The translations under genes were made by a program, and so were the position numbers. A stretch of 64,000 bases of DNA. Origin: Hufsiella ginkgonis. GTDB taxonomy: Bacteria; Bacteroidota; Bacteroidia; Sphingobacteriales; Sphingobacteriaceae. Numbering within the stretch: position 1 is the stretch's first letter; each line of letters begins with the position of its first letter. Below the pieces are notes generated by a model. It searched no databases, was not told the origin of the DNA, and was given only the letters and a program-made list of their open reading frames with translations. The stretch covers positions 248,001-312,000 of the forward strand of contig NZ_WVHS01000002.1 in assembly GCF_009834915.1 (NCBI RefSeq). Direction: 5' to 3'. Positions 6,278-29,539 of this stretch are shown here, piece by piece.

Positions 6278-6279
6278 AT

Positions 6280-6975: not shown

Positions 6976-7003
6976 AAAGGTAATGAACAAAGAAGGATCT
7001 GCA

Positions 7004-8161: not shown

Positions 8162-8162
8162 C

Positions 8163-11292: not shown

Positions 11293-12470
11293 TCGCGGTA
11301 ATTGCGGATGACCTGACGGGCGCTGCTGAAATCGCGGGCATCGGCCTGCGTTTCGGGCTAAACGTGGAACTCTCGATGGAAGTACCGGGAGCCTCGCATG
11401 CGGATCTGCTGGTGATCGCCACCGACACGCGTTCGCGTTCGCGGGAAGAAGCCGTAGCCATCTCCGGAAAAACCACCTCGGCGCTGACAAAACTACGGCC
11501 GCAATGGATCTATAAGAAGATCGACTCCGTAATGCGCGGTCACCTGCTCCCGGAAATCGCGGCGCAAATGACCGCCATGAATTGCGACACGGCATTGATC
11601 GTGCCCGCTAATCCACACCTTGGGCGAACCATCAAAAACGGCAGGTACCTGGTCCATGATACCCCGGTTAACCAGACCGGTTTTGCTCACGACCCGGATT
11701 TCCCGGTAACAGAGTCAGACATTTTAAGGAGGTTCAGCCAGGAAGAACATACGCTGCAGGTATTGAGCTGCCGCGGGGAACTATCCGGTAAGGGCATTTA
11801 CGTCGGCGAAGCGGCATCCGGTTCAGACCTCGGCGCATGGGCCGGGCTAAAAAGCAAGCCAGGGGTTTTGGCCGGAGCGGCGGGTTTTTTTTCTTCGCTG
11901 CTGGAACATGAAGGATTAAAAGCGCGGATCAATGTCAAGGCAGTCCGTTTTGAATCCCCTTCTTTATACGTATGCGGCAGCGCCTACAAAGAGCGGGTAG
12001 ACCTGGTCCGGGCGGCATTTGAACGAAATTCACCAGTAAGCTACCTTCCGGCGGCATTAACGCAGGCCGTAGCGCGCGCAGGGGCCGGTGTAACCGCGTG
12101 GTGCGACGAGATTGTTTCGCTGCTTAACCAATATGGTACCGCGATCATCGCCATAGACCCCGCGGCGGTGGAACCATCGGCTACGGCAACCCATCTCCGG
12201 AAAGTAATGGCCGCGGCGGTAGCCCGGGTGCTTCGTAACATACCGGTTAGAGAGCTTTTTATTGAAGGGGGATCCACGGCTTCTGCTATCTTAGAAGAAG
12301 CAAAAATAACCGCACTTTCGCCAATAAACGAGTTGGCTGCCGGGGTGGTCCGGATGCAGGCGGCCGCTGATCCCGGTTTTCATATCACCATAAAGCCAGG
12401 GAGTTATCATTGGCCGGAAATGGTAAACAACTTTTTTGCAAAGGCAAACTATACTAAACCAATTATATGA
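11289..12470 (+). CDS. DUF1537 four-carbon acid-sugar kinase (DtnK-like)
   Basis: A 393-residue cytoplasmic kinase. The N-terminal VIADDLTGAAEIAG is the DUF1537 (SBD_N) active-site motif with the Asp pair at 7-8, and IYKKIDSVMRGH is the second conserved block. The C-terminal nucleotide-binding half carries LFIEGGSTASAIL, the counterpart of the usual AGGDTS loop, with Glu replacing Ala. Members phosphorylate C4 acid sugars such as D-threonate, L-threonate and D-erythronate. Its 4-bp overlaps with PdxA2 upstream and the SSS symporter downstream suggest an uptake, phosphorylation and oxidation series. A second, longer DUF1537 protein lies at 36188-37567 with different partners. Confidence 0.85.
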   Translation: MIAVIADDLTGAAEIAGIGLRFGLNVELSMEVPGASHADLLVIATDTRSRSREEAVAISGKTTSALTKLRPQWIYKKIDSVMRGHLLPEIAAQMTAMNCDTALIVPANPHLGRTIKNGRYLVHDTPVNQTGFAHDPDFPVTESDILRRFSQEEHTLQVLSCRGELSGKGIYVGEAASGSDLGAWAGLKSKPGVLAGAAGFFSSLLEHEGLKARINVKAVRFESPSLYVCGSAYKERVDLVRAAFERNSPVSYLPAALTQAVARAGAGVTAWCDEIVSLLNQYGTAIIAIDPAAVEPSATATHLRKVMAAAVARVLRNIPVRELFIEGGSTASAILEEAKITALSPINELAAGVVRMQAAADPGFHITIKPGSYHWPEMVNNFFAKANYTKPII

Positions 12471-16367: not shown

Positions 16368-16426
16368 ATACCAGCGCTTGTAGATATCAGGATTACTATC
16401 CATTTTCGCGTCCCGCTAATGTGCAG

Positions 16427-17245
16427 ATGGCGAATAATTACGACAAGATCCTGAGAGAGAATTTCCGGCAGCCTAAAAAACTGCTGGTTAGTGAACTATT
16501 GAACACCGATCCTGTACGCGTGGTGCCGCTGGTACCAAAAATCCAGCACACGATTCTCGAACGGGAAACCGACACCATTGCCGAGGTGCTTACCAGCGAC
16601 GGTAAACTGGTGATCCTGCATATAGAATGGCAAAGCTCGAACGACCCCAAAATGGGCCTTAGGATGGCGATCTACGACCTCCTCCTGCATCAAACGTATG
16701 AGAAAGATGTGATTGGAGTGGTACTGTATGTGGGTAGATCCAAAATGACCATGACGGGAAAACTCGCTTTCGCCGGGTTGCGTTATAAATGTATCATATT
16801 AGATATCAGGAGATTTGATCCTTCCATGTTCCTGGAGTCGGATGACCCTGGCGAGATAATACTGGCGGTGCTGGCGGGAGGAGAAAACGACAAGTCACAG
16901 GTCGTAAATAGAATATTTGTTAAATTGCAGCAACTTTTAGATAATGATAAAACAGAGCTGAAAAAGCGGATCAGGCAGCTGGAGTTACTGTCATTACTGA
17001 GAGGAGAAGACGTACAGCGATTAGTTAATAAAAAGGAAGATAAAATGGCGGTTACAATAGACATCACACGGGATTTAAAATATCGGGCCGGCCTGGAAAA
17101 AGGTCAGGAGAGATTTTTTAAAGGGATTAACCAAATGCTCAGCGAAGGCTACTCACAAACCGAAATACAACGTTTCTTTGGTCTTTCGAAAAAAGAGATC
17201 AATCGCGTAATGGCGTTAAACGATGCTGCCGTCAAAGATCAATAG
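16427..17245 (+). CDS. Rpn/PD-(D/E)XK nuclease-transposase family protein
   Basis: A 272-residue cytoplasmic protein. ETDTIAEVLTSDGKLVILHI followed by EWQS gives the D...ExQ arrangement of the Rpn (recombination-promoting nuclease) type PD-(D/E)XK fold, and MGLRMAIYDLLLHQTYE is the helix that follows. The C-terminus (about 230-265) has SEGYSQTEIQRFFGLSKKEI, a helix-turn-helix-like tail common in this group. Such proteins are often multicopy. It is unrelated in function to the surrounding sugar genes and is bounded by an inverted repeat upstream. ATG 16427 is preferred over GTG 16421. It converges on the IclR gene, with 4 bp between stops. Confidence 0.75.
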   Translation: MANNYDKILRENFRQPKKLLVSELLNTDPVRVVPLVPKIQHTILERETDTIAEVLTSDGKLVILHIEWQSSNDPKMGLRMAIYDLLLHQTYEKDVIGVVLYVGRSKMTMTGKLAFAGLRYKCIILDIRRFDPSMFLESDDPGEIILAVLAGGENDKSQVVNRIFVKLQQLLDNDKTELKKRIRQLELLSLLRGEDVQRLVNKKEDKMAVTIDITRDLKYRAGLEKGQERFFKGINQMLSEGYSQTEIQRFFGLSKKEINRVMALNDAAVKDQ

Positions 17246-17249
17246 TTTA

Positions 17250-18023
17250 TCATACCCCGATCTTCTTTTCGATCCTCTTGGCACAAAGATTAGCTTCAGC
17301 GAGGATTTTTTCATTAGCTACGCCCATATCGATATTGTGCAGCGTTGTTAACCTCGAAACCGTTAAACAAGCGATAATGCCCGAAGTCTTATTTCCTACC
17401 GGGATAGAAATATCGGTCACTCCCTCCGCCAGGTCGCTGTTTTTGATATAATAACCGTCTGCCCGGATTTTCGTCAGCGTTTGCATGAAATCTTTTTTTT
17501 GCTGGTCGGGGTAGGATTTATAGATCTTGATATTCTTTAACATCGCGCGCTGTTCATCTTCGGGAAGATAAGCAAGTAATACGCGGCCTGATGCGGTAAG
17601 CGGTAACGGGAACAGGTTTCCCTCCTCGATGGACAGTGCGATAGGTCCCGGGCTTTTCGAATGGATGATCACCATCAACTGGTTATGATATAAAATACTC
17701 AGGTGACAAGATTGACGAATAGTTTGCGAAAGCTCCTCCATCGGGTATTGTGCCGCTTTCCGCAGCTCATCTACCGGCGAATGCCTGTGCGAAATATGAT
17801 ATAACTTCAGCGAAAGTTTGTACTTGCCGGAAACTTCTTCCCTAAGAATATAACCACGTTCTTCCAGGCACATCAGCATGCGATAGATCTCATTTTGACT
17901 TCGTTCAATCCCCGTTGCAATCTCCGTTTGCGATTGCGGAGCCGATTGAGACGAAAGATACTCCAGGATGTCGAGTCCCTTATCTAAGGCGGGCGCCTGG
18001 TACCTGCTTTCTTTTTCCTGCAT
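17250..18023 (-). CDS. IclR-family transcriptional regulator
   Basis: A 257-residue regulator: winged helix-turn-helix (about 8-75; LDKGLDILEYLSS, QTEIATGIERSQNEIYRMLM, EERGYILRE) followed by an IclR effector domain (PLTASGRVLLAYLPEDE, SDLAEGVTDISIPVGN). It is divergently transcribed from the rhamnosidase/CoA-transferase operon and is its obvious local regulator; the ligand is probably a sugar or acid intermediate. The start is placed at ATG 18023. An in-frame TTG at 18053 overlaps a TAAGTTTG -7 box, which argues against the longer form. A perfect inverted repeat at 18075-18098 is the candidate binding site. Confidence 0.9.
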   Translation of the reverse strand: MQEKESRYQAPALDKGLDILEYLSSQSAPQSQTEIATGIERSQNEIYRMLMCLEERGYILREEVSGKYKLSLKLYHISHRHSPVDELRKAAQYPMEELSQTIRQSCHLSILYHNQLMVIIHSKSPGPIALSIEEGNLFPLPLTASGRVLLAYLPEDEQRAMLKNIKIYKSYPDQQKKDFMQTLTKIRADGYYIKNSDLAEGVTDISIPVGNKTSGIIACLTVSRLTTLHNIDMGVANEKILAEANLCAKRIEKKIGV

Positions 18024-18050
18024 AATGGTTTTTACAATGGTCAGCCAAGA

Positions 18051-18058
18051 CAAACTTA
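18051..18058 (-). promoter_or_regulatory. Candidate -7 box of the iclR-type gene
   Basis: On the minus strand this reads TAAGTTTG, a full match to the Bacteroidota -7 consensus TAnnTTTG, and lies 28 bases upstream of ATG 18023. The -33 region would fall at about 18078-18083, inside the inverted repeat at 18075-18098, consistent with autoregulation. Confidence 0.5.
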
Positions 18059-18074
18059 AGCAAAGTATTGTACT

Positions 18075-18098
18075 TTATGCCGCCGTGATGCGGCATAA
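18075..18098. promoter_or_regulatory. Candidate IclR operator (perfect 9-bp inverted repeat)
   Basis: TTATGCCGC at 18075-18083 and GCGGCATAA at 18090-18098 are perfect reverse complements separated by six bases (CGTGAT). The element is GC-rich in an otherwise AT-rich divergent intergenic region and lies between the two candidate -7 boxes. Length and symmetry suit an IclR dimer or tetramer. It is not followed by a T-tract on either strand, so a terminator is unlikely. Confidence 0.65.
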
Positions 18099-18131
18099 TT
18101 AAAATATATTTTCATATTTAAAAGTTATATT

Positions 18132-18139
18132 TATATTTG
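18132..18139 (+). promoter_or_regulatory. Candidate -7 box for the GH78/CoA-transferase operon
   Basis: TATATTTG matches TAnnTTTG and sits 22 bases upstream of the TTG start at 18162. No good -33 TTTG is seen about 20 bases further upstream, as might be expected for an activator-dependent promoter. The inverted repeat lies about 34-57 bases upstream of the box. Confidence 0.45.
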
Positions 18140-18161
18140 AATTACCAATTATTGAGCTGAC

Positions 18162-20942
18162 TTGTTTAGGAACTATCTTCTTACCTCGCTTCTTATCATT
18201 GCTTGGGCGGCCTCGCAAGCTGCTGTCCTCACCGTGAGCGCTTTACGCTGTGAATCGAGAGTGAACCCTTCCGGTATAGAAACCCTGACGCCCCGATTTA
18301 GCTGGGAAATTACTTCACCGGTAAGGAATACACGGCAAACGGCTTACCGGATCCTTGTTTCGGACGACGCCACGATGCTTGCAAAAAACATCGGTAATGT
18401 ATGGGATTCGAAAAAGACCTATTCAACGGCGTCTATTCAAGTCGCTTTCGCCGGAAAATCGCTGCAGGCCATTCGGTCCTATTCCTGGAAAGTGATGATA
18501 TGGGATAACCACGGCCAATCTTCCGCCTGGAGTTTAACCGCAACTTGGCAAATGGGGTTATTAACGACCTCGGACTGGAAGAACGCCCGCTGGATCACGC
18601 ACGAGATCATGCCTGATTCGATCCGCAATATTCTTCCCGTAGACGGACAAAAAGACAAGATTTATTTAAACAATACACTCCCGCTGCTGCGGAAAAGCTT
18701 TTCGCTAAAAGAACGGGTTAAGAAGGCGACCTTTTTTATTTCAGGGTTAGGTCACTTTGAGCTGCACGTAAACGGCAGGAAAATCGGCGATCACTTTCTC
18801 GACCCCGGCTGGACCAAATATGACAAAGAGGCCCAGTATGTCCCTTTTGATCTCACATCGCAGTTGCGCCCGGGAGAAAATGTACTCGGCGTGATGTTGG
18901 GAAATGGCTTCTATTATGTTCCGCTGGTTAAACAACGTTACCGCAAGCTGAAATCGGCTTTTGGTTTTCCTAAGATGATCGGCCGGCTGGTGATCGAATA
19001 TACCAGCGGCCGGGTTGAAAATATCGTGAGCGACCCTTCCTGGAAAACTGCGGCCGGTCCCATCACTTTCTCCAGTATTTACGGTGGTGAAGACTATAAC
19101 GCCAACCTTGAACAAAACGGCTGGGACGCGCCATCGTTTAACGACAGGACCTGGACGGCTGCTTTGCTTACAGATGGTCCGCCCCGGCTGTATGCCCAGC
19201 AACAGGAGCCCCTCAGGATATTTGAGAACTTCGCGCCGGCAAAATCCACGAAACTGGCATCGGGCGACTGGGTGTTCGACCTCGGTCAAAATGCCTCCGG
19301 GATCGTAAAGATCCAGGTAAAAGGGAACAAGGGTGATACCGTTAGGATCGTTCCTGCGGAGCTGTTAAAAGAAGATGGAAATGTAAACCAGCGTCCCGTT
19401 GGCAGCCCGTTTTATTTTGAATACGTATTAAAAGGCGAAGGCGTAGAAACGTGGCAGCCCCGTTTTACTTATTACGGCTTCAGGTACCTCCAGGTAAAAG
19501 GCGCAATGCCCGGGGGGCAGCCAAATCCTTCCCGTAAGGCTGAGGTCCTGGCGGTTACTGGCTTGCATATCCGCAACGCAGCAGAACGCGCCGGCAATTT
19601 TGCCAGTTCCAGCGACCTTTTCAACCGTACCGGTAAGCTTATCGACTGGGCGGTTAAAAGCAACATAGTAAGCGTTTTTACGGATTGTCCGCACCGCGAG
19701 AAACTCGGGTGGCTGGAGGAAGTTCACCTGGTGGGACCGTCGGTACGCTACAATTATGATATTGAAACATTATGCCGCAAGACCATTTCAGACATGATCA
19801 GTTCGCAGACTGCAGACGGATTGGTGCCCGGGATCGCACCTGAATATGTGAAATTTGAATGGGGTGGCGATATGTTCCGTGACTCCCCGGAATGGGGCAG
19901 CAGCAGCATCCTGGTGCCCTGGTACACCTATCAATGGTATGGAGACAGCCGGGTGTTGCGTGACAGCTACGCGATGATGCAGCGCTACATCGCTTACCTC
20001 GGCACGAAAGCTAAAAACAATATTCTTTCGCAGGGGCTGGGAGACTGGTACGACCTCGGACCAAAACCGCCGGGCGTGTCGCAACTTACCCCGATGGGAG
20101 TTACGGGCACCGCCATGTATTATTACGACCTGAAGGTGCTTTGTGAAATTGCGGCCCTGCTTGGCAAGTCAAACGACGTATCTCTCTATTCACAATTGGC
20201 GGAAAAAGTAAGAAAATCCTTTAACGATACCTTTTTCAACAGCGAGACCAAACAGTACGCTACCGGCAGTCAAACCGCTAACGCGATGGCCATTTACATG
20301 CAATTGGTTAATCCCGCTGATAAGGCGGCAGTGATGGATAACCTGGTAAAAGAGATCCGAAGCCATAATAACAGCCTCACTGCCGGTGATATCGGTTACC
20401 GTTACCTGCTCCGGGTATTGGAACAGGAAGGGCGCTCGGACGTGATCTTTGATATGAATAACCGCGATGATGTACCTGGCTACGGGTACCAATTAGCGAA
20501 AGGCGCCACCGCTTTAACCGAATCGTGGCAAGCGCTCCCAACGGTATCAAATAATCATTTGATGCTGGGGCATGTGATGGAATGGTTTTACAGTGGGCTC
20601 GCCGGCATTCGTCCCGCTGCCGGATCCATCGCGTTTAACCGCATACACATCCAGCCTGAAGTGGTAGGTGATATCTCTTCCGCACATGGTTCATACCATT
20701 CTCCTTATGGGATGATTTCGAGCGACTGGAAAAGAGACGACGTTACGTTTGAACTGAACGTCACCATTCCGCCGAACACGCTTGCAACCATTTATCTCCC
20801 CGCGGGAGAAAACGACAATATACAAGAAAATGGAAAATCGCTTGCCGGCACCCGTGGGTTAGAAGTGCTGAAGAACGAAAACGGGCGCACCGCGATTAAA
20901 ACAGGGTCGGGTATATACCATTTCGTGGTAACAAAGAAATGA
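18162..20942 (+). CDS. Alpha-L-rhamnosidase, GH78, secreted, TTG start
   Basis: A 926-residue GH78 enzyme. Signal peptide at 1-21 (NYLLTSLLIIAWAASQAA), then LRCESRVNPSGIE and PRFSWEIT, the rhamnosidase-N jelly roll, and the (alpha/alpha)6 domain with DCPHREKLGWLEE (Asp508, Glu513, Glu520), a recognised GH78 sub-form different from the DCPQR form in the gene at 3512. An in-frame stop at 18153-18155 forces a start after it, and TTG 18162 is the only initiator that leaves a full signal peptide. It is the first gene of the IclR-linked operon, suggesting that the operon deals with a rhamnosylated compound. It overlaps the next gene by 4 bp. Confidence 0.92.
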   Translation: MFRNYLLTSLLIIAWAASQAAVLTVSALRCESRVNPSGIETLTPRFSWEITSPVRNTRQTAYRILVSDDATMLAKNIGNVWDSKKTYSTASIQVAFAGKSLQAIRSYSWKVMIWDNHGQSSAWSLTATWQMGLLTTSDWKNARWITHEIMPDSIRNILPVDGQKDKIYLNNTLPLLRKSFSLKERVKKATFFISGLGHFELHVNGRKIGDHFLDPGWTKYDKEAQYVPFDLTSQLRPGENVLGVMLGNGFYYVPLVKQRYRKLKSAFGFPKMIGRLVIEYTSGRVENIVSDPSWKTAAGPITFSSIYGGEDYNANLEQNGWDAPSFNDRTWTAALLTDGPPRLYAQQQEPLRIFENFAPAKSTKLASGDWVFDLGQNASGIVKIQVKGNKGDTVRIVPAELLKEDGNVNQRPVGSPFYFEYVLKGEGVETWQPRFTYYGFRYLQVKGAMPGGQPNPSRKAEVLAVTGLHIRNAAERAGNFASSSDLFNRTGKLIDWAVKSNIVSVFTDCPHREKLGWLEEVHLVGPSVRYNYDIETLCRKTISDMISSQTADGLVPGIAPEYVKFEWGGDMFRDSPEWGSSSILVPWYTYQWYGDSRVLRDSYAMMQRYIAYLGTKAKNNILSQGLGDWYDLGPKPPGVSQLTPMGVTGTAMYYYDLKVLCEIAALLGKSNDVSLYSQLAEKVRKSFNDTFFNSETKQYATGSQTANAMAIYMQLVNPADKAAVMDNLVKEIRSHNNSLTAGDIGYRYLLRVLEQEGRSDVIFDMNNRDDVPGYGYQLAKGATALTESWQALPTVSNNHLMLGHVMEWFYSGLAGIRPAAGSIAFNRIHIQPEVVGDISSAHGSYHSPYGMISSDWKRDDVTFELNVTIPPNTLATIYLPAGENDNIQENGKSLAGTRGLEVLKNENGRTAIKTGSGIYHFVVTKK

Positions 20943-22060
20943 TCATGAAAATACTCGGGCAAATAGCGTTAGCGCTGGTGGTCTTCGCAGGCGGAGCTAC
21001 CGCCCGGCAGGACGGGAAAACGGTGCCTGCCGCTGCAATGCGGCAAATCTACGAGGAAGTTAAAACGCCCTATAAATACGGCATGGTGGTCGTTCCGGCC
21101 GACAATACCAGTAAAATTGATTGCCCTACCGTTTTTCAAAAAGGGAACAAATGGTACATGACCTACCTTGTATTTGACGGTCGCGGCTACGAAACCTGGT
21201 TGGCCGCCAGCACCGACCTGCTCGACTGGAAAGCAATGGGGAAGGTGCTTTCCCGCAGCGCGGATACCGCAAAATGGGACGCCAACCAGCTGGCTGGCTA
21301 CCCTTCGCTTGGCGACACCAAATGGGGAGGCGGGTACCGGCTCGGCCGTTATAATGGCCGGCGTTGGATGTCGTACTTTGGGGGAAACGTGAAGGGCTAC
21401 GAGGCGGGCGATCTATCCATCGCCATAGCGCATACTACCGGTGATGTAGCAACCGCCCATGAATGGGAGCATGCAGCCTCACCCGTGTTTACCGCCAGGG
21501 ATCCCGGTGTACGCTGGTGGGAAAACCGGAAACTTTTTAAAAGCACCGTGATCCGCGATAAGCAAAAGCTGACCGGTTATCCTTTCGTAATGTACTACAA
21601 CGCCAATGGCGATTCTGCAGTTAATAACGTAAAAACAAGGTGGTTTGAACGGATCGGGATGGCAGTGTCAAACGATATGGTCACCTGGAAACGCATGGTG
21701 AACGATCCGCTGGTACATCACCCGGTCGGTATTACCGGCGACCCCGTGATCCAAAAGATCGGGGATGTATGGGTAATGTTCTATTTCGGCGCCTTCTGGC
21801 AGGACCGGAAAGGGGCTTTTAATCGATTCGCCTGCTCTTACGACCTCGTGAACTGGACTGACTGGACAGGAGAAAACCTGGTCTCGTCGTCCGAACCGTT
21901 TGATGAGTTATACGCACATAAGTCATTTGTAGTGAAGCATAAAGGAGTAGTATATCACTTCTATTGCGCCGTAAATAAAAAGGAACAACGGGGTATAGCG
22001 GTAGCTACTTCTGTCGATAAAGGAAAAAGTAAACTTAATTTTATACCTGCGGGAAAGTGA
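20939..22060 (+). CDS. Five-bladed beta-propeller glycosidase-like protein, secreted
   Basis: A 373-residue exported protein (signal peptide to about residue 22) with the repeated W/Y-x-Y/F patterns of GH43/GH32/GH130-type propellers: KWYMTYLVFDG, RWMSYFGGN, FVMYYNA, VWVMFYFGAFW and VVYHFYCAV. Asp61 in KIDCPTVF is in the position of the conserved N-terminal Asp of these clans. I cannot assign a CAZy family. It probably removes a second sugar after or before the rhamnosidase it overlaps by 4 bp. ATG 20945 is an alternative start. Confidence 0.7.
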   Translation: MIMKILGQIALALVVFAGGATARQDGKTVPAAAMRQIYEEVKTPYKYGMVVVPADNTSKIDCPTVFQKGNKWYMTYLVFDGRGYETWLAASTDLLDWKAMGKVLSRSADTAKWDANQLAGYPSLGDTKWGGGYRLGRYNGRRWMSYFGGNVKGYEAGDLSIAIAHTTGDVATAHEWEHAASPVFTARDPGVRWWENRKLFKSTVIRDKQKLTGYPFVMYYNANGDSAVNNVKTRWFERIGMAVSNDMVTWKRMVNDPLVHHPVGITGDPVIQKIGDVWVMFYFGAFWQDRKGAFNRFACSYDLVNWTDWTGENLVSSSEPFDELYAHKSFVVKHKGVVYHFYCAVNKKEQRGIAVATSVDKGKSKLNFIPAGK

Positions 22061-22062
22061 GT

Positions 22063-23220
22063 ATGGAGAAGATCCGTTTAAAGGGCATTACCTGGAATCA
22101 TAGCCGCGGCCTGCTGCCCATGGCGGCGACTGCACAACGGTTTAATGAGCTGCATCCGCATATAGAGATCACCTGGGAAAAACGGTCGCTGCAGGAGTTC
22201 GCCGACCTGTCTATCGGGCAACTGGCCGCCAGGTTTGACTTGCTGATGATTGATCATCCCTGGGCTGGCTTCGCCGCCGAAACCGCGGCAGTGTTGCCGT
22301 TAGACCAATATTTACCGGCTGGGTTTATCGATGATCAGCGCAAAAACAGTGTCGGCCGTTCATACGGGAGTTATACCTACGGCGGTCATCAATGGGCTCT
22401 TTCAATAGACGCAGCCACGCCTGTAGCCTCAAGCCGGCCGGACCTGCTGGCTAAACACGGCTTATTGCTGCCTGCGCGCTTTAACGACCTGCTTGAACTT
22501 GCCAAACAGCGCCTCGTAGGGTTTTCGCTCATCCCCATAGATACACTAATGAGCTTTTACATGTTCTGCTGCTCACTCGGTGAACCGCCCTGCCTGCGAA
22601 CGGAAGAGGTGATCTCCGAAAAGACCGGCACCCGGGCATTGCAATTGTTCAGGCAGCTCGCCAGCCTCGTGAACCGCGATTTTTTTGAGAAGAATCCCAT
22701 CGCTGTTTATGAGACCATGACCCTGACCGACGAGATAGCCTATTGCCCCTTTGCTTACGGGTATTCCAATTATGCACGCGACGGCTATGCACGCAAGCTC
22801 CTGCATTTTCACGACCTGGTGAGCCTCGACGGAATTACGCCTATGCAAAGTACACTTGGCGGGACCGGCCTGGCGGTTTCATCCAACTGTACACATCGCC
22901 GGGAAGCGCTGATGTATGCAGAATATGTCGCGTCGCCAGTTTGCCAGCAGACGCTTTATTTCCAGAACGGCGGACAGCCGGGACATTTAAGTGCCTGGAA
23001 GAACGAAAAAGTTAACGCGTCGTCGTCCGACTATTTTACCAATACTTTACCTGCGCTGGAACGCGCCTTCCTGCGTCCACGGTACCATGGGCACATGTAT
23101 TTCCAGGACCATGCGGGCGATTACGTAAGAGAATATTTACTGGACGGCGGTCAGGAACGCCCCCTGCTGCAAAAGCTGAACGACATCTACCATCAATCGC
23201 AAAAAGCGCAACCATTATGA
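22063..23220 (+). CDS. Cytoplasmic solute-binding-protein-like protein A (no signal peptide)
   Basis: A 385-residue protein with the family 1 extracellular solute-binding fold: ITWNHSRGLLPMAATAQRF, FNELHPHIEITWEKR, FDLLMIDHPWAGFAAE and YVASPVCQQTLYFQNGGQPG are typical of ABC sugar-binding proteins. It has no signal peptide: an in-frame stop at 22036-22038 and the start codons available (GTG 22057, ATG 22063) exclude one. No ABC permease or ATPase for sugar import is in the operon. It sits directly before a CoA-transferase with a 4-bp overlap. A cytoplasmic ligand-binding or enzyme-partner role is more likely than transport; this is inference. Confidence 0.75.
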   Translation: MEKIRLKGITWNHSRGLLPMAATAQRFNELHPHIEITWEKRSLQEFADLSIGQLAARFDLLMIDHPWAGFAAETAAVLPLDQYLPAGFIDDQRKNSVGRSYGSYTYGGHQWALSIDAATPVASSRPDLLAKHGLLLPARFNDLLELAKQRLVGFSLIPIDTLMSFYMFCCSLGEPPCLRTEEVISEKTGTRALQLFRQLASLVNRDFFEKNPIAVYETMTLTDEIAYCPFAYGYSNYARDGYARKLLHFHDLVSLDGITPMQSTLGGTGLAVSSNCTHRREALMYAEYVASPVCQQTLYFQNGGQPGHLSAWKNEKVNASSSDYFTNTLPALERAFLRPRYHGHMYFQDHAGDYVREYLLDGGQERPLLQKLNDIYHQSQKAQPL

Positions 23221-24383
23221 CGAAACCCCTGGAAGGCATCGTGATGCTTGAGTTCTGCCAGTTTATGGCCGGCCCGTCTGCGGGCCTCAAACTAGCCGAC
23301 CTCGGGGCTAGGGTGATCAAAATTGAACGTCCCGTTCACGGCGAATCAGGCAGACAAATTGCCATAAAGAACATTTTTATCGAAGGAAACAGCCTGGTTT
23401 TTCACACCATCAACCGCAACAAGGAATCCTATGCCGCTGATCTGAAGAATCCCGCCGACCTTGCGATGGTTAAAAAGCTGATCGCACATGCGGATATTAT
23501 CACGCATAACTTCCGTGCAGGCGTAATGGAAAAGCTCGGCCTGGATTACGGATCGGCAAAGGCGATCAATCCCAGGATCGTTTATGGTGTGGTTACCGGT
23601 TACGGGAATAACGGTCCCTGGGCGCTAAAACCCGGGCAGGACCTGCTGGTACAATCGCTCTCCGGCCTCACCTACCTCTCGGGAACGCGCAATGACGGCC
23701 CGGTGCCCTTCGGCCTGGCCGTTACGGATATTTTTTGCGGCGCGCATTTCGCCCAGGGACTGCTTGCCGCGTTACTGAAACGGGCAAAAACCAATAAAAG
23801 CGTGCTGGTGGAAGTAAGCCTGCTCGAGTCTGCGCTCGACATGCAGTTCGAGGTAATTACCACTTACCTGAACGATGGCGGCAAACTACCCATGCGCGGC
23901 GCGGCGAACGGCACCGGCCATGCTTACCTGAACGCGCCATATGGCGTTTACCGGACAAAAGACAGCTATCTCGCCATGGCCATGGGCGATCTTCCTGCCA
24001 TCGGCGATGCGATCGGCTGCAAGATAACCGTACTTTTCCCCGACCCGGCGCGCTGGTTCGGCCAGCGTGACGATATCGCTAAACACATAGCCGATTGCCT
24101 GCGGGAACAAACCACTTCATACTGGGTAGCATTGCTGGAATCGTTAAAGATCTGGTGCTCGGCCGTATTTAACTACCGCGATGTGCTGGAACACGAAGGC
24201 TATAAATCACTGGAAATGGCGCAGGAAGTGCAGCTGTCAGGCGACAACACCTTAACTACTACACGCTGCCCCATCCGGATCAACCGGCAAAAGATCTATT
24301 CGCCGGTAGCCGCACCGCTGGCAGGCGCCGATACCGATTCCATTAACCACGAATTTAACCTCACCACTCATGAAACCACTTGA
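23217..24383 (+). CDS. Family III CoA-transferase A (CaiB/BaiF)
   Basis: A 388-residue cytoplasmic CoA-transferase. [21 protein letters not shown] (15-39 region), [35 protein letters not shown] and [12 protein letters not shown] are classic CaiB/BaiF blocks. Asp171 ([10 protein letters not shown]) occupies the nucleophile position of formyl-CoA transferase (Asp169), so the enzyme should be active. It moves CoA from a donor acyl-CoA to a carboxylic acid. The following gene is a clear paralogue that it overlaps by 14 bp, raising the possibility of a heterodimer as in benzylsuccinate CoA-transferase. The acid substrate is unknown. Confidence 0.9.
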
Positions 24384-25512
24384 GGATTACCTGGTAATAG
24401 ATTTCAGCCAATTCCTTTCGGGACCATCCGCCAGCCTTAAAATGGCAGACATGGGAGCGCGGGTCATTAAAATAGAGCGCCCGGTTACCGGTGATATTTG
24501 CCGGAGTCTGTATACTTCCAACGTAGTGATGAATGGCGAATCATCGGTATTTCACGCCATCAACCGCAATAAGGAAAGTTTCGCCGCCGATCTGAAGGAC
24601 GAAAACGACCGGGCAGCCATCTGGCAGCTTATCGTAAAAGCCGATGTAGTAATGCATAACTTCCGCCCGGGCGTAATGAAACGGCTTGGCCTGGATTACG
24701 CAGCAGTAAGAAAAGTAAATCCAGGTGTGGTGTACGGCGAAATATCCGGTTACGGCGAAGAAGGGCCCTGGAAAGATAAGCCAGGGCAAGATCTCCTGCT
24801 GCAATCGCTCTCCGGCCTTACCTGGCTGAGCGGTAACGAAGGGAACGGGCCTGTACCCATGGGGCTCTCGATCATCGACATGCTGGCCGGTATGCATCTT
24901 TCGCAAGGTATTCTCGCCTGCCTGCTTCAGCGGACCGCTAATGCACAGGGTTCGCTGGTGCAGGTGAGCATGCTGGAATCGGCGCTCGACCTGCAGTTTG
25001 AAACGATTACCACCTTTTACCGCGATGGGGTGTTGCCCGAACGCTCCCGGCAAAACAACGCGCACGCGTATTTAAGCGCACCTTACGGGGTTTATAAAAC
25101 AGTAAACAGCTACATTGCGCTGGCCATGGGAAGTATTCCGCAACTGGGCAAACTGTTAAACTGTAGCGGACTGCTTGAATTTAACAGCATTGATGCCGCA
25201 TTTGAACACCGTGACGAAATAAAATCTATTTTAGCTGGCCATTTATTGACAAACACCACCGAATATTGGCTTTCCGTACTTGAACCTGCGGATATCTGGT
25301 GTTCGGACGTGCTTTCCTGGGACAGGCTGATGCAGCACGACGGCTTTAAGTCGTTAGAAATGGTCCAGGAAGTACAAATGAGCGACGGGTTTACTTACCG
25401 TACTACCCGCTGCCCGATCCGGATAGATGGTGAACTAATGACATCGGCTAAAGGATCGCCAAAGCTAGGCGAAGATAATAGTCGTGTATTTAGCGACTTA
25501 TCAATTAACTAA
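24370..25512 (+). CDS. Family III CoA-transferase B (CaiB/BaiF)
   Basis: A 380-residue paralogue of the preceding CoA-transferase, similar along its whole length ([57 protein letters not shown]). The nucleophile Asp170 ([10 protein letters not shown]) is present, so neither paralogue looks inactive. Both also share a C-terminal block [15 protein letters not shown] / [15 protein letters not shown]. The 14-bp overlap with the upstream copy implies tight co-translation. Two active paralogues may form a heterodimer or serve two successive acids. Confidence 0.9.
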
Positions 25513-25515
25513 CCA

Positions 25516-26760
25516 ATGTCTCTACAACAGTCTGACCACTTTCGCATCGCCGTGCGAAAATTTGGCCCTTTCGAAACCATGCTTCAAAAGACGTGGGATG
25601 AATACTGCAGCCATTCAGGCTGCCGCCTCGCCGGAGAACTGGTTGCGCTCGACCTTCATCCTTTGCACCAAACCCTGCTAACGGATGGCGGCCTGAAAAA
25701 CGGAGACTGGGACGTGGCTCATATCAGTACCGACTGGTTGTATGAAGCGTATAACAGCGGTTCGCTCGAAGACCTGGCGCCTTACTTGGGCAATGTCCCG
25801 CCCGAAGACTTTCCTCACGGCTGGAGCGAGTCTTTACTCGGCCTCCAGCAGTTCGGCGGCACGATTGGAGCCTTACCTTTTCATGACGGCCCGGAGTGCC
25901 TTATTTACCGCAAGGACCTTTTTGGCGACCCGCGGGAGCAGGAGATTTTTTTTAAACTTTACGGAAAGAAACTGGCGCCGCCAGTAACCTGGGAGGAGTT
26001 CAGGGACATTGCGCGTTTTTTTAACCGGCCGGGCGAGCAACGGTATGGCGCCGTGTTCGCCTGTTTCCCCGACGGCCACAATACCGTATTTGATTTCAGC
26101 CTGCAAGTTTGGACACGCGGCGGATCCCTCGTTAATAGGCTCGGCCAAATAGATATAGACACCCCGGAAGCTGCCGAAGGGCTGAAGTTTTACCGCGACA
26201 TGGTGAACGACGTATCGGCGGTCCATCCCGGCTCGGCGGGCTTTGATTCGGTGGCAGCCGGCGCCGCATTTGCCCGTGGCGAAGCCGCCATGATGGTAAA
26301 CTGGTTTGGATTTGCGTCGGTTTGCGAAGTTTCAGAAACATCGCAGGTAAAGGGAAAGGTTGATATCACCAACGTCCCCGCCGCCATGCCGCACGAAACT
26401 GCCTCGTTAAATGTTTATTGGCTTTACGCGATCGGGTCCGGGAGCCGCCATAAGCAAACGGCTTATGATTTTATCCGCTTCGCGTTAAGCAAAACAAACG
26501 ACAGGCTGCTCACCCTGGAAGGTGGCATTGGCTGCCGCATTTCTACCTGGACCGACCCGGAGATCAATCAGCTGATCCCATACTACCATAAGCTGGAGGA
26601 ATTACACCGGCACGCACGCACGCTGCCGCTTAAAGATAACTGGAATGCCATTGCCGCTGTAATTGATGAAGTGGTGCTCGAAGCCACCGGCACGCAAAAA
26701 CCAATTAACCAGCTCCTGGCCCGGGGCCAGGGAAAGATCCTGTCACTTAATAAGGCTTAG
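25516..26760 (+). CDS. Cytoplasmic solute-binding-protein-like protein B (no signal peptide)
   Basis: A 414-residue family 1 solute-binding-type protein: WDVAHISTDWLYEAYNSG, GALPFHDGPECLIYRKDLFG, PVTWEEFRDIARFF, AFARGEAAMMVNWFG and AYDFIRFAL follow the normal order of these proteins. The in-frame TAA at 25510-25512 lies two codons before ATG 25516, so no signal peptide can exist and the product must be cytoplasmic. Similarity to protein A is at fold level. Flanking a CoA-transferase pair with one such protein on each side is unusual; a ligand-sensing, chaperoning or catalytic role linked to the CoA-transferases is the inference. Confidence 0.75.
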   Translation: MSLQQSDHFRIAVRKFGPFETMLQKTWDEYCSHSGCRLAGELVALDLHPLHQTLLTDGGLKNGDWDVAHISTDWLYEAYNSGSLEDLAPYLGNVPPEDFPHGWSESLLGLQQFGGTIGALPFHDGPECLIYRKDLFGDPREQEIFFKLYGKKLAPPVTWEEFRDIARFFNRPGEQRYGAVFACFPDGHNTVFDFSLQVWTRGGSLVNRLGQIDIDTPEAAEGLKFYRDMVNDVSAVHPGSAGFDSVAAGAAFARGEAAMMVNWFGFASVCEVSETSQVKGKVDITNVPAAMPHETASLNVYWLYAIGSGSRHKQTAYDFIRFALSKTNDRLLTLEGGIGCRISTWTDPEINQLIPYYHKLEELHRHARTLPLKDNWNAIAAVIDEVVLEATGTQKPINQLLARGQGKILSLNKA

Positions 26761-26763
26761 CGA

Positions 26764-27840
26764 ATGGAATTATTATATAAACCGCTCTTACCGAGGACAC
26801 CGCTCCCCATCGTAATTATAGGCGCAGGCGGAATTGTAGGCGATGCGCATTTACCCGCCTACCAGCAGGCTGGTTTCACCGTACATGGCATTACGAACCG
26901 CACACGTGAAAAGGCCGAAGCACTTGCCGGCAGGTTCGGGATCCAAAACGTGTATTCTTCGGTAAATGAAGCCGTAAATCATGCACCAGGTAATGCAGTA
27001 TATGATATTACCATTATGCCCCAACAGTTCCTGGAAACGCTGAACCAATTGCCGGACGGGAGCGGGGTGCTGATCCAGAAGCCGATGGGCGATTACTTTA
27101 GCCAGAGCAAAGAGATCCTGGAGGTTTGCCGCAAAAAGAACCTTGCCGCCGCCGTTAACTGCCAGCTGCGTTTTGCGCCGTTCGTGAGCGCAGCCCGGCA
27201 CATGATCGAGCGCGGCATGATCGGCGAGCTGTATGATATGGAGGTGCGCGTGACGGTGAAAACCCCGTGGGAATTGTTTCCGCATGTAATGGTCCACCCA
27301 CGGTTGGAGATCCAGTATCATAGCATCCATTACATCGACCTGGTGCGCTCGTTCCTTGGCGATCCGCGGAACGTGATGGCTAAAACACTCAAACATCCTG
27401 CTAAAACGCTTTCTTCATCGCGCTCTACTATTTTGTTCGACTACGGGGATACCATACACGCCGTGATCAATACCAACCACGACCACGATTTTGGTCCGCA
27501 TAACCAGGAAAGCTACATTAAATGGGAGGGGACAAAAGGCGCCATCAAGGCTAAAATGGGCCTGCTGATGGATTATCCGCATGGCGTGCCGGATCATTTT
27601 GAATATTGTATCCGCAATGATCACGAGCCACCCGAATGGGAAACTGCAGCGCTCGAAGGCTCGTGGTTCCCCGATGCGTTTGCCGGCACCATGAGCAGCC
27701 TGATGCGGTACAAGAACGGCGAGTCCAATCTATTGCCTACCCATGTAGAAGACGTCATAAAAACGATGGCCGTAGTAGAAGCGGCGTATAATTCGAGCGA
27801 CAGCGGCGGTACGCCGATAAATTATGGATCAAGCAACTAA
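26764..27840 (+). CDS. Gfo/Idh/MocA-family oxidoreductase
   Basis: A 358-residue NAD(P)-dependent sugar or cyclitol dehydrogenase. Rossmann motif IIGAGGIVGDAHLPAY (about 18-33); the usual E-K-P is QKP (IQKPMGD, about 105), with the catalytic Lys kept; QYHSIHYIDLVRSFLG provides the conserved C-terminal His block. The last two-thirds form the GFO_IDH_MocA C-terminal beta sheet. In this operon it would oxidise a sugar, or a sugar-derived hydroxyl, ahead of CoA activation. It lies 3 bp after protein B and 3 bp before the MaoC gene. Confidence 0.87.
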   Translation: MELLYKPLLPRTPLPIVIIGAGGIVGDAHLPAYQQAGFTVHGITNRTREKAEALAGRFGIQNVYSSVNEAVNHAPGNAVYDITIMPQQFLETLNQLPDGSGVLIQKPMGDYFSQSKEILEVCRKKNLAAAVNCQLRFAPFVSAARHMIERGMIGELYDMEVRVTVKTPWELFPHVMVHPRLEIQYHSIHYIDLVRSFLGDPRNVMAKTLKHPAKTLSSSRSTILFDYGDTIHAVINTNHDHDFGPHNQESYIKWEGTKGAIKAKMGLLMDYPHGVPDHFEYCIRNDHEPPEWETAALEGSWFPDAFAGTMSSLMRYKNGESNLLPTHVEDVIKTMAVVEAAYNSSDSGGTPINYGSSN

Positions 27841-27843
27841 GCG

Positions 27844-28284
27844 ATGTATTTTAAATCTACTTTCTTCGAAGATTACACGATAAATGATAAACGGGTTACC
27901 CTTGGCCGTACCGTCACGGAGACCGATTTCGTAGTACACGCAGGCCATACCGGCGATTTCTTTCCCCACCACCTCGATGCGGAGTGGTGTAAAACGCAGC
28001 CCTTCGGGCAGCGTATCGCCCATGGCACCATGATCTTTGCCATCGGTATCGGGCTAACCGCCTCCGAGATCAACCCGGAAGCTTTTTCGAAAGGATACGA
28101 CCGGCTGCGCTTCGTAAAACCGGTTTTTGTAGGCGATACGATCCATTCGGAAGTAACGATTTCCGAAAAATCGGAAGCAAAAAAACCGGGATATGGTACC
28201 GTAACGGAACATGTGGAAGTAATTAACCAGCATGGCGAAGTGGTACTGGTATGCGATCACTTGCTGGTTGTTAAAAAATCATGA
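27844..28284 (+). CDS. MaoC-like hydratase/dehydratase
   Basis: A 146-residue single hot-dog-fold protein. [13 protein letters not shown] contains Asp38 and His43 in the spacing of the hydratase-2 motif GDxNPxH, with Phe40 replacing Asn, as seen in some mesaconyl/itaconyl-CoA hydratase-like members; [10 protein letters not shown] is the following conserved segment. It should add or remove water on an enoyl-CoA or beta-hydroxyacyl-CoA. Together with two CoA-transferases it strongly suggests a CoA-thioester pathway rather than ordinary sugar catabolism. The Asn-to-Phe change makes the exact substrate class uncertain. Confidence 0.85.
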
Positions 28285-28285
28285 T

Positions 28286-29539
28286 ATGAAAGCCTCCAAC
28301 AACGTTTACCTGGTTCCTTTCATTCTCGTTACGAGCCTGTTTTTCCTTTGGGGAATGGTGCACAACCTCGATGGCATTCTGATCCCCCACCTTAAAAAAG
28401 CCTGTCAGCTGAACAACCGGCAATCGACACTGGTGGATACCGCCATTTTCCTGGCTTATTTTATCATGGCCATCCCGGCAGGGCTGTTACTGAAAAAGTG
28501 GGGATATAAGATCAGCATCGTAACGGGACTGGTGATCGCCGCCGCCGGCGCAGCGCTGTTTGTACCTGCAGCCAACCAGCGTGCATACGAAATGTTTCTC
28601 GGGGCCCTGTTTATTATCGGGTGCGGGATCGCCATCCTCGAAACTGCTGCAAACCCGTATACCGAAGCACTGGGCGCGCCTGAAACAGCCACCATCCGCA
28701 TGAACCTGGCCGCGTCTTTTAACGGTCTGGCTGCAGCCGTAGCGCCGATCGTGGGCAGTATATTCATTTTCTCGGGAAAGAACTACACAACTGAACGATT
28801 ACAGGCGATGTCGGACGCAACGCGGAACGACTACCTGTTTACGGAAGCGGCATCTGTAAAACTGCCGTACCTGGTTTTAAGCGGCGCACTGTTATTGGTG
28901 GCGCTACTGTTTTATCTCACCAGGATCCCGGAGATCAAACCAGCCGAAGATCTCGCAGTGCCAAAAGGAAATCTTTTCTCCGTACTTCGTAATAAGCACG
29001 TTTCGTGGGCAGTAGTCGCACAATTCTTTTATGTGGGTGCGCAGGTTTGTGTCACCAGTTTCTTTATCCGCATGGCGGAACAGGGCGCCGGTATGGATGA
29101 GAAAACAGCGGCCTGGTACTTGTCTGTTTATGGTACGTTGTTCATGACCGGGCGATTTGCGGGCACTTTCCTGCTTCGTTTTACCACGCCGCAACGCTTG
29201 CTGTTTATTTACGCGCTGGCTTCCATCGTGCTTTGCGCGATCGCGATCCTGGGCGACGGCGCTTATGTGATCTACGCACTCGGCGGATTAGGGTTTTTTA
29301 TGTCGATCATGTTCCCGACTATCTTCTCGCTTGGAATTAAAGGTTTGAATGAAGACGCTAAACCGGCCTCCTCATGGCTCATTATGGCAATAGTGGGCGG
29401 AGCGGTATTGCCATACCTGATGGGCACGATGATCGACCTCAACCACGACCTTATCCAGCCGGGTTATACAATACCACTTATTTGCTATGCCGTTATCCTG
29501 TTCTTCGCATGGCGGGGATACAAGGTAAAAACGGTGTAA
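28286..29539 (+). CDS. FucP-like major facilitator sugar permease
   Basis: A 417-residue, about 12-TM inner-membrane permease. LVTSLFFLWGMVHNLDGILIPHLKKAC matches the fucose:H+ symporter group, here with MVHNLD where FucP has the conserved N/D region; AANPYTEALG and the MFPTIFSLGIKGL block are also typical. The start is ATG 28286, one base after the MaoC stop; in-frame ATG 28232 inside the MaoC gene is rejected. It is the last gene of the IclR-linked operon and is the only transporter there, so it rather than an ABC system must import the substrate. Confidence 0.88.
   Translation: MKASNNVYLVPFILVTSLFFLWGMVHNLDGILIPHLKKACQLNNRQSTLVDTAIFLAYFIMAIPAGLLLKKWGYKISIVTGLVIAAAGAALFVPAANQRAYEMFLGALFIIGCGIAILETAANPYTEALGAPETATIRMNLAASFNGLAAAVAPIVGSIFIFSGKNYTTERLQAMSDATRNDYLFTEAASVKLPYLVLSGALLLVALLFYLTRIPEIKPAEDLAVPKGNLFSVLRNKHVSWAVVAQFFYVGAQVCVTSFFIRMAEQGAGMDEKTAAWYLSVYGTLFMTGRFAGTFLLRFTTPQRLLFIYALASIVLCAIAILGDGAYVIYALGGLGFFMSIMFPTIFSLGIKGLNEDAKPASSWLIMAIVGGAVLPYLMGTMIDLNHDLIQPGYTIPLICYAVILFFAWRGYKVKTV

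Follow-up and report, generated by a model that had tools for sequence, protein, structure and literature searches.

Closest described systems

To our knowledge, breakdown through CoA thioesters has so far been tied to fatty, aromatic, and carnitine-type acids. In carnitine metabolism, the CoA-transferase CaiB and the crotonase CaiD handle a 3-hydroxy acid in the form of its CoA thioester. Phenyllactate is handled by FldA together with FldBC, a radical 2-hydroxyacyl-CoA dehydratase, and no solute-binding protein (SBP) is known to take part. The sugar-acid dehydratases named in PMC6336799, on the non-phosphorylative Route III pathway, are members of the enolase, ILVD/EDD, and UxaA/GarD superfamilies.

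Organization of the locus

The window considered here is a stretch of 64,000 nucleotides from the genome of Hufsiella ginkgonis. Its plus strand carries, at 22057-29539, a seven-gene operon in which two SBP-like proteins are encoded together with CoA-transferases and a hydratase. The operon and the genes that precede it are as follows.

17250..18053, minus strand: IclR-family regulator (PF01614, 87 bits)
18162..20942, plus strand: GH78 alpha-L-rhamnosidase (Bac_rhamnosid6H, 317 bits)
20939..22060, plus strand: glycosidase resembling the N-terminal quarter of the NF049877 model (513 bits)
22057..23220, plus strand: SBP-A, solute-binding protein of 387 aa without a signal (Pfam SBP_bac_1, 42.8 bits)
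23217..24383, plus strand: CoA-transferase A, class III (CaiB/BaiF; PF02515, 296 bits), overlapping SBP-A by 4 nt
24370..25512, plus strand: CoA-transferase B, class III (PF02515, 323 bits)
25516..26760, plus strand: SBP-B, second signal-less solute-binding protein, 414 aa (PF01547, 87 bits)
26764..27840, plus strand: Gfo/Idh/MocA dehydrogenase (PF01408, 44 bits)
27844..28284, plus strand: MaoC-type enoyl-CoA hydratase (PF01575, 77 bits)
28232..29539, plus strand: FucP-type L-fucose:H+ symporter permease (TIGR00885, 352 bits, cut-off 280.4)

Pfam assigned the expected family to each of the seven operon proteins, and the order of open reading frames bears out the arrangement given in a preliminary description of this DNA, from SBP-A to FucP after a GH78 and a glycosidase. 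That description had also reported the lack of an ABC permease; among the ten proteins scanned with Pfam, from 17250 to 29539, we found neither an ABC permease nor a thiolase. SBP-A starts with a GTG at 22057, an ATG lying in the same frame at 22063. FucP, which passes the TIGR00885 cut-off, scores 325 against NF007524, below the cut-off of 427. The glycosidase aligns through residues 23-368 with positions 11-358 of the 1400 in NF049877, a beta-D-glucuronidase/beta-L-arabinofuranosidase model, its score being below the cut-off of 1800. The Gfo/Idh/MocA protein is possibly an aldose 1-dehydrogenase. Relatives of the IclR protein adjoin other copies of the operon, and this regulator probably controls the cluster. 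Farther along the window, a MacB-type exporter was recognized by eye at 32-34 kb.

Proposed pathway

In our reading, to which we give a probability of about 0.48, the operon supplies a CoA-dependent dehydration step to the oxidative, non-phosphorylative breakdown of a 6-deoxyhexose, namely L-rhamnose, L-fucose, or a closely related sugar. The sugar would enter through FucP and be oxidized at C1 by the Gfo/Idh/MocA protein or another dehydrogenase, hydrolysis then giving the aldonate. Cytoplasmic SBP-A would bind this sugar acid and work with the pair of CoA-transferases, which would load CoA onto it to form an aldonyl-CoA. MaoC would take off the 3-hydroxyl, tautomerization would yield the 2-keto-3-deoxy acyl-CoA, and the transferase would pass the CoA on to the next aldonate, as CaiB does with CaiD for carnitine. 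The 2-keto-3-deoxy acid would finally be oxidized at C4 by a short-chain dehydrogenase (SDR) and cleaved by a FAH-family hydrolase to pyruvate and lactate; genes for both are found elsewhere in the genome, and their activities are predicted.

What the computations establish is the gene order, the lack of signal peptides, the retention of catalytic residues, the steady association with a CoA-transferase and an enoyl-CoA hydratase, and, in some genomes, a dehydratase gap. The identity of the sugar, the enzyme activities, the role of the SBPs, and their contact with the enzymes are our proposals. The preliminary description had postulated a CoA-thioester route for a glycan-derived compound. The link to a glycan-derived sugar stands, but rather than a pathway apart, the CoA chemistry is more likely a substitute for a single step (aldonate dehydration or a related one) in the oxidative deoxy-sugar route already known.

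Distribution of the operon and its genomic company

SBP-A constitutes a distinct family, present in 19 of the 395 Bacteroidota genomes sampled and in 18 of 398 Pseudomonadota genomes. The Bacteroidota count leaves out 36 of the 55 matching genomes, whose matches are all weak (E of 8e-10 or above, for the most part to longer proteins). Of 22 Pseudomonadota loci, 20 were taken in; one (G506:C17, L195) was left out, and that of G455 is L099, already counted. The Azospirillum locus (L172) is readable in part only. Tabulation of the SBP-A homologues, a count of the kind suggested in the preliminary description, places a CoA-transferase in all 121 SBP-A loci; in 116 of them it lies within 300 bp and is encoded on the same strand. 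A MaoC or crotonase gene is present somewhere in the stretch in 120 of them, and only a 6.3 kb contig lacks one. In 102 of 117 distinct loci, SBP-A and the CoA-transferase overlap or are separated by no more than 10 nt; this holds for 84 of the 97 loci in which SBP-A comes first and for 18 of the 20 in which the transferase leads. A script finds the complete set of seven genes in 64 of the 80 named loci; the number drops to 63 on a strict reading of L088, where FucP is represented by a remote match at another place in the locus. This rules out chance neighbours. The gene order of the window recurs in other genera and therefore reflects more than chance. GH78 and relatives of the glycosidase at 20939..22060 occur together in 24 of the 80.

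The operon is thus a widespread module rather than a single oddity. We found no description of such an operon or pathway, and no mention of an aldonyl-CoA, in the open-licence papers searched, in line with the earlier view that no known pathway matches. The association of signal-less SBPs with CoA-transferases and a dehydratase in many bacteria suggests an undescribed intracellular breakdown of deoxy sugars.

The carriers accompanying SBP-A (FucP, RhaT, ABC, or TRAP) and the type of hydratase vary from locus to locus. In Alphaproteobacteria, the same genes stand beside carriers of the ABC or TRAP type, each equipped with an exported binding protein of its own, and clusters with a permease carry a separate exported SBP. 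Related clusters from other habitats are accompanied by alpha-L-fucosidases, and the set of RhaM, amidohydrolase, SDR, and FAH is complete in several, including L020, and partial in others.

These neighbours bear on an alternative in which the CoA-transferases, MaoC, and the SBPs act on another acid, either an uncommon sugar acid or, on a pectic glycan, an acyl or branched substituent (aceric acid, a constituent of rhamnogalacturonan II, would be an example), the fucose and rhamnose genes being merely co-regulated. Such a substrate would suit the position of the operon behind a GH78 and a glycosidase that resembles an arabinofuranosidase/glucuronidase model, with a GH2, a second GH78, and a tetronate-kinase-type operon upstream, as well as Rhizobium sp. 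Q54, where a TRAP carrier occurs together with MaoC, CoA-transferase, crotonase, and SBP-A. However, the alpha-L-fucosidases and the RhaM, amidohydrolase, SDR, and FAH genes of related clusters, and the lack of a thiolase among the ten proteins from 17250 to 29539, argue against it, and we regard this alternative as rather unlikely.

Deoxy-sugar genes and the dehydratase gap

The reading as a dehydration step draws on what surrounds the operon and what is missing there. FAH, SDR, ADH, and amidohydrolase genes diverge from the operon in 17 of the 80 named loci, and none of these 17 stretches contains an enolase-type or UxaA-type match. One of the 17, L075, encodes an L-fucose dehydrogenase (356 bits, cut-off 300) and matches to fuconolactonase (263 bits, below the cut-off of 400) and to 2,4-didehydro-3-deoxy-L-rhamnonate hydrolase (376 bits, below the cut-off of 500). 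Its genome (G445) holds one ILVD/EDD gene, one UxaA within a uronate cluster, and two enolase-family genes that score best as a racemase and MenC. The window genome carries an SDR-hydrolase pair (L123) apart from the operon; its hydrolase matches the 2,4-didehydro-3-deoxy-L-rhamnonate hydrolase model over the full length at 362 (cut-off 500), by far its best family. This genome has one ILVD/EDD gene, a UxaA within a uronate cluster, and two enolase-family genes that score best as epimerase/racemase types while staying under every family cut-off. Neither a known type of aldonate dehydratase nor a lactonase adjoins its operon or its SDR-hydrolase pair, and RhaA is absent from all nine genomes searched, that of the window included.

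A UxaA-type gene was rejected as the gap filler in G000, G034, G013, G445, G447, G449, and G451, where it adjoins uronate genes (judged by eye); the rejection covers these seven genomes, and not the five of nine that carry such a gene beside the SDR-hydrolase pair in addition to the operon, nor G011, whose copy stands apart (L135). Matches to PF13378 occur in 13 of 13 genomes. The assignment of these possible enolase-type fillers covered few of all PF13378 matches: both genes above the cut-off in each of G000, G445, and G451, as well as the top gene of G013 and that of G034, were assigned to epimerase, racemase, or MenC types. By contrast, the top PF13378 genes of the two Flavobacterium genomes G447 and G449 are dehydratase-like, and the gap is less clear there: the gene of G447 resembles galactonate dehydratase (226 bits, cut-off 311), and that of G449 is of the talarate type (214 bits, cut-off 500).

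Several observations count against the proposed step. Enolase-superfamily genes, some annotated as L-fuconate dehydratases, are found in a number of alphaproteobacterial clusters alongside SBP-A, CoA-transferase, Gfo, and MaoC; those scanned (L010, L022, and also L106 of Paenibacillus) match talarate/galactarate dehydratase best, below the cut-off. Dehydration would therefore be duplicated in such clusters. Genes of the talarate/galactarate-dehydratase type also lie in the operon stretches of L013 and L019; together with those of G447 and G449, they lowered our probability from 0.50 to 0.48. L075 carries an SDR-type L-fucose dehydrogenase as well as Gfo, which makes the oxidation assigned to Gfo doubtful. 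Moreover, the accessible part of PMC3454389 places the high-affinity L-fucose and L-rhamnose receptors of S. meliloti at loci other than its pSymB cluster, so that the sugar of that cluster may be another. The five genomes with a UxaA-type gene beside the SDR-hydrolase pair, the lack of a lactonase next to the operon or that pair in the window genome, and the lack of any mention of an aldonyl-CoA in the papers searched weigh in the same direction.

Binding-protein folds without an export signal

An in-frame TAA stands at 22036-22038, the seventh codon before the first possible start of SBP-A, and another at 25510-25512, the second codon before that of SBP-B, and no hydrophobic stretch follows the first possible start in either protein (all read by eye). 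These features exclude a signal peptide on both proteins, as the preliminary description had maintained, and the stops rule out, for the window, that mis-called starts mask one. By a simple hydropathy rule, a hydrophobic N-terminus is absent from 114 of 121 SBP-A ORFs and appears in the other seven loci only if the longest ORF is taken; the same rule detects one in 14 of 14 ABC binding proteins from the same loci. Comparison with two reference permeases, and with these only, recognized no same-strand ABC permease at a distance of up to 300 bp in any SBP-A locus (0 of 121). Homologues with signal peptides and adjacent ABC permeases, which the preliminary description had named as evidence against its proposal, are not what these counts reveal.

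The AlphaFold2 model of SBP-A (pLDDT 94) has the periplasmic-binding-protein fold, with a best Z of about 38 against the PDB (38.5 to MalE3), and SBP-A lacks both the signal peptide and the adjacent cognate permease of ABC substrate-binding proteins. Across 14 diverse members, 46 columns are invariant, including the motifs TWxHxRG, DHPxxG, YGYxxY, and LGGTG; these columns and the missing permease rule out a decayed ABC receptor. Relatives of SBP-B without a signal occur in Croceibacterium and in the archaeon Halostagnicola, where SBP-B adjoins an AMP-binding CoA ligase, with MaoC, CoA-transferase, mutarotase, amidohydrolase, and alpha-L-fucosidase genes in the vicinity.

Folds of this kind act as sensors in other systems, and SBP-B has no constant neighbour across the loci seen; the SBPs might sense or buffer sugars in the cytoplasm, sharing the operon but standing outside the CoA chemistry. 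Against this speaks the CoA-transferase gene found with SBP-A in every one of the 121 loci, before or after it and in most cases overlapping it or no more than 10 nt away, while the carriers and the kind of hydratase differ among loci. We consider a pure sensor or buffer role improbable.

CoA-transferases and hydratases

Both transferases pass the gathering score of PF02515 (296 and 323 bits for A and B, cut-off 23.3), and their CoA-transfer activity is predicted. Asp171 of A and Asp170 of B, presumably the catalytic aspartate of this class, occupy an alignment position at which all 204 CoA-transferase ORFs have Asp; it lines up with an Asp of YfdE. In four Hymenobacter loci (L031, L032, L033, L052), A and B are fused in one gene of 792-818 aa. 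The model of the fused protein is poor (pLDDT 64.8, pTM 0.64), and in its alignment the transferase A rows were seemingly placed on the B half; we count it against the preferred reading. Alternatively, the pair might include an epimerase, similar to alpha-methylacyl-CoA racemase, which inverts C2 of the aldonyl-CoA before MaoC or a classical dehydratase acts. In favour of this are the match of B to 2-methylacyl-CoA racemase (4e-24) and the two unlike transferases that are retained and even fused, and the enolase-type genes of some clusters leave room for it. Against it, B matches transferases better (formyl-CoA type, 1e-51; YfdE, 8e-47), and the Asp aligned with that of YfdE is conserved in all 204 ORFs; we deem this the least likely of the alternatives.

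MaoC exceeds its PF01575 cut-off of 27 bits and has an intact motif, GDFFPHH, at residue 37; GDxxxxH is found in 68 of 69 MaoC ORFs shorter than 260 aa, and its Asp/His dyad is what we take to be the functional residues. The closest PDB chain is 4ffu (211 bits), to our understanding a protein from S. meliloti, whose pSymB copies of MaoC are 66% identical. On the SBP-A tree, the neighbour changes between MaoC and crotonase five times, against a shuffled mean of 19.5, and at least four of these changes are forced by supported branches. Operons of the crotonase type are found, for example, in Zobellia and Gilvimarinus.

More tentatively, SBPs may have been recruited as non-transport, cytoplasmic subunits of CoA-transferases. 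SBP-A would present sugar acids to a heterodimeric class III transferase, founding a CoA-thioester sugar catabolism in which MaoC (3R) and crotonase (3S) are interchangeable for acids of opposite C3 configuration, in Bacteroidota, Pseudomonadota, Bacillota, Actinomycetota, and, in part, an archaeon. If this is true, sugar acids can be degraded as CoA thioesters, and a fold familiar from receptors outside the membrane serves among cytoplasmic enzymes. Deoxy-sugar use in genomes with rhamnosidases but without rhamnose isomerase could thereby be explained, and annotations of these proteins as ABC-transporter substrate-binding proteins would need correction.

Comparison with known systems

As in the CaiB/CaiD system, a class III CoA-transferase is encoded together with an enoyl-CoA hydratase, and the recycling of CoA from product to substrate is the logic that we propose. 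Unlike that system, the operon has two different transferases, both far below the cut-off of the CaiB equivalog model NF002914 (62.9 and 74.7 bits against 413), MaoC or crotonase, cytoplasmic SBPs, and sugar-pathway neighbours. FldA with FldBC likewise has a hydroxy acid activated by a CoA-transferase of the same class and then dehydrated, but employs a radical 2-hydroxyacyl-CoA dehydratase and is not known to involve an SBP. SBP-A shares its fold with ABC solute-binding proteins of the MalE, trehalose/maltose, and sulfoquinovose group (Z of about 38, 2.5-3.0 A over 360-373 residues among the best 15 matches), whereas it has no signal peptide or adjoining permease, possesses its own invariant motifs, and is 12-18% identical to the matches listed. 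The Route III pathway for L-fucose and L-rhamnose, as far as the accessible text of PMC6336799 describes it, has possible counterparts in matches to SDR, 2,4-diketo-3-deoxy acid hydrolase, lactonase, mutarotase, and 1-dehydrogenase found with the operon or in the genomes of relatives; in contrast to Route III, some genomes have the CoA-transferase/MaoC set in the position where the dehydratase is expected.

Gene order and signal-less binding proteins in the window

The gene order of the preliminary description is borne out by family matches (window G000:C12:248001-312000; genome size, 5.2 Mb). The features discussed here are as follows.

6274–14032: second operon, beside GH2 and GH78 genes, with DUF3826, BNR-repeat, Fe-dependent alcohol dehydrogenase, DapA-family and PdxA-family proteins
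16421–17245: 274-aa protein between the upstream operon and the IclR gene
22036–22038: in-frame TAA in the frame of SBP-A, read by eye
22057–29539, plus strand: seven genes, namely SBP-A (SBP_bac_1), the CoA-transferases CoT-A and CoT-B (both CoA_transf_3), SBP-B (SBP_bac_1), Gfo (GFO_IDH_MocA), MaoC, and an MFS protein matching TIGR00885 fucP
25510–25512: in-frame TAA in the frame of SBP-B, read by eye

Genes of the main operon overlap by 4, 14 or 53 nt (the last value stems from the longest ORF) or are separated by 3 nt; 5′ of it lie an IclR gene on the opposite strand, a GH78 rhamnosidase and a second glycosidase. The second operon also contains a weak D-threonate kinase match (121.7 bits against a cut-off of 450), followed by a transporter that by eye is of the SSS type; it is possibly a C4 sugar-acid route for a glycan shared with the main operon. 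The 274-aa protein has no Pfam match at 1e-5 and by eye looks like the Rpn/PD-(D/E)XK type.

Because of the upstream TAA codons, neither solute-binding protein can carry a signal peptide, as had been claimed. The structure model predicts with high confidence that SBP-A is a solute-binding protein. The contrary prospect, that homologues elsewhere possess signal peptides, did not materialise: a simple hydropathy rule applied to longest ORFs found a hydrophobic N-terminus in 7 of 121 SBP-A ORFs. L060, L064, L073, L076, L104 and its duplicate L204 have an in-frame Met just before the conserved start (seen in five, L204 being a repeat of L104); the 742-aa ORF of L027 misreads a gene whose annotated length is 1146 nt. 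All 14 ABC binding protein matches from these loci contain a hydrophobic segment. Among 82 ORFs that match SBP-B, a few of which are over-long readings (L208, L209), only that of L023 (542 aa) has such a segment, and it looks like an ABC-type protein. The SBP-B relatives annotated in Croceibacterium and Halostagnicola begin without a signal, and so do those of L208 and L209 when read from an internal Met.

The SBP-A/CoA-transferase core and its distribution

Loci were annotated by BLAST against reference proteins; the 121 comprise 80 from species genomes, 8 from relatives, 12 from plasmids, 20 of the 22 from Pseudomonadota, and the window, and four contigs, recognised by their length, occur twice (L015/L034, L017/L038, L018/L048, L204/L104), leaving 117 distinct loci. 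The suspected association with CaiB/BaiF and MaoC genes proved to be nearly universal in this set: a CoA-transferase is present in 121/121 loci, on the same strand within 300 bp in 116 (the exceptions being L024, L173, L205, L214 and L215), and a MaoC or crotonase match occurs somewhere in the stretch in 120, the sole exception being a 6.3 kb contig (L044). In 102 of the 117 distinct loci, SBP-A and a CoA-transferase, in either order, overlap or are separated by no more than 10 nt; six overlaps above 200 nt among these are artefacts of longest-ORF choice. The aligned Asp is present in all 204 CoA-transferase ORFs, with fused pairs counted once. CoT-A and CoT-B form a single gene (792–818 aa) in four Hymenobacter, both halves of each fusion having the Asp motif; this fusion argues for a putative CoT-A/CoT-B heterodimer.

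SBP-A was found in 8 of 59 relatives (9 of 60 genomes counting the window's own). Seven of the eight share the order SBP-A, CoT-A, CoT-B, SBP-B, Gfo, MaoC, FucP; the eighth (L020) has RhaM, MaoC, SBP-A, two CoA-transferases, amidohydrolase, RhaT, Gfo, a second MaoC, SDR and FAH. The species-genome scan gave at least 583 relatives among at least 594 matched stretches; in the best 80, a set that leans to Bacteroidota, a script found all seven operon genes in 64 loci (63 if L088 is read strictly). Even sampling of the window's phylum found the family in 19 of 395 genomes (E 2e-149 or better; next match 8e-10), and that of Pseudomonadota found it in 18 of 398 (22 loci). Plasmid records gave 146 matches, 90 of them from Sinorhizobium and all below 60% identity; one locus each was inspected in Paenibacillus (L106) and Streptomyces (L024). 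Three Pseudomonadota matches (G786:C11, G678:C7, G738:C1) have one in-frame stop codon each, possibly reflecting pseudogenes or gene-end effects.

Cluster composition varies. Alphaproteobacterial clusters are supplemented by differing combinations of amidohydrolase, ABC transporter, enolase-type protein, RhaM, SDR and FAH. A second version comprises Gfo, an isomerase-like protein, DUF4432, SDR, CoA-transferase, SBP-A and crotonase, with an additional FAH protein in L023, L206, L205 and L212; the L023 protein is a relative of 2-keto-3-deoxy-D-arabinonate dehydratase (3.7e-19), its nearest match being 9kkt (1.2e-113). The Streptomyces locus has SBP-A, FAH protein, CoA-transferase, MaoC and aldehyde dehydrogenase. 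In a single case, the archaeon Halostagnicola larsenii, an AMP-binding CoA ligase adjoins signal-less SBP-B in a fucose-type cluster (L216:10323-11951); its 25 kb stretch has no SBP-A match.

Hydratase exchange and the dehydratase gap

MaoC and crotonase replace each other beside the same SBP/CoA-transferase pair. A quick-method SBP-A tree was built from 117 proteins; 38 of its 114 inner branches are starred, and several rows sit on long branches. On this tree, hydratase labels, assigned by the nearer gene where both occur (L173, L205), change five times, four changes being forced by starred branches; the shuffled mean is 19.5. The two folds are unrelated, enoyl-CoA hydration being common to both; The substrate of MaoC is 3R hydroxyacyl-CoA, that of crotonase the 3S form. 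L-Rhamnonate and L-fuconate share the 3R configuration, which would fit the MaoC of the window operon.

FAH, ADH, SDR and amidohydrolase genes diverge from the operon in 17 of 80 loci (Flavobacterium and two Flavobacteriaceae; best 80 of at least 583), and all 17 stretches are free of enolase-type and UxaA-type matches. For F. aquidurense (L075), the L-fucose dehydrogenase match exceeds the cut-off, and the fuconolactonase and 2,4-diketo acid hydrolase matches fall below it; the genome carries a single ILVD/EDD gene, a single UxaA, which lies in a uronate cluster, and two enolase-family genes that exceed the family cut-off and are of the racemase and MenC types. The gap is not general: a gene resembling galactonate or talarate dehydratase is present in two other Flavobacterium (G447, G449), and a talarate-type dehydratase gene lies near the operon in L013 and L019.

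The window genome has an SDR–hydrolase pair on another contig (L123), accompanied by a weak RhaM-like gene; no dehydratase adjoins the pair. The enolase-family genes of this genome score highest as epimerase or racemase, and so do the best of G013 and G034. RhaA, and FucI above cut-off, are absent from all nine genomes. A UxaA-type gene adjoins the SDR–hydrolase pair in five of the nine; therefore, the operon may serve another sugar there. One UxaA-type family (~540–555 aa) lies, depending on the genome, beside deoxy-sugar SDR/hydrolase genes (L126-L130) or in uronate clusters (L132-L134, L136-L139), so the two substrates would be mixed up if genes were annotated from the family alone.

Proposed route and comparison with known systems

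The gene content fits a route in which a deoxy-sugar aldonate would be turned into its CoA thioester, which MaoC or crotonase would dehydrate, the binding protein being the putative substrate-handling partner. Several observations speak against this aldonyl-CoA reading: some clusters and genomes contain enolase-type genes, dehydrogenases are doubled in Flavobacterium, and S. meliloti has separate high-affinity receptors for fucose and rhamnose, as described in PMC3454389.

No description of such a system was found in the open-licence literature searched. A word search of the main text of PMC6336799 returned no word beginning with CoA; the sugar-acid dehydratases named in passages of that paper belong to the enolase, ILVD/EDD and UxaA/GarD groups.
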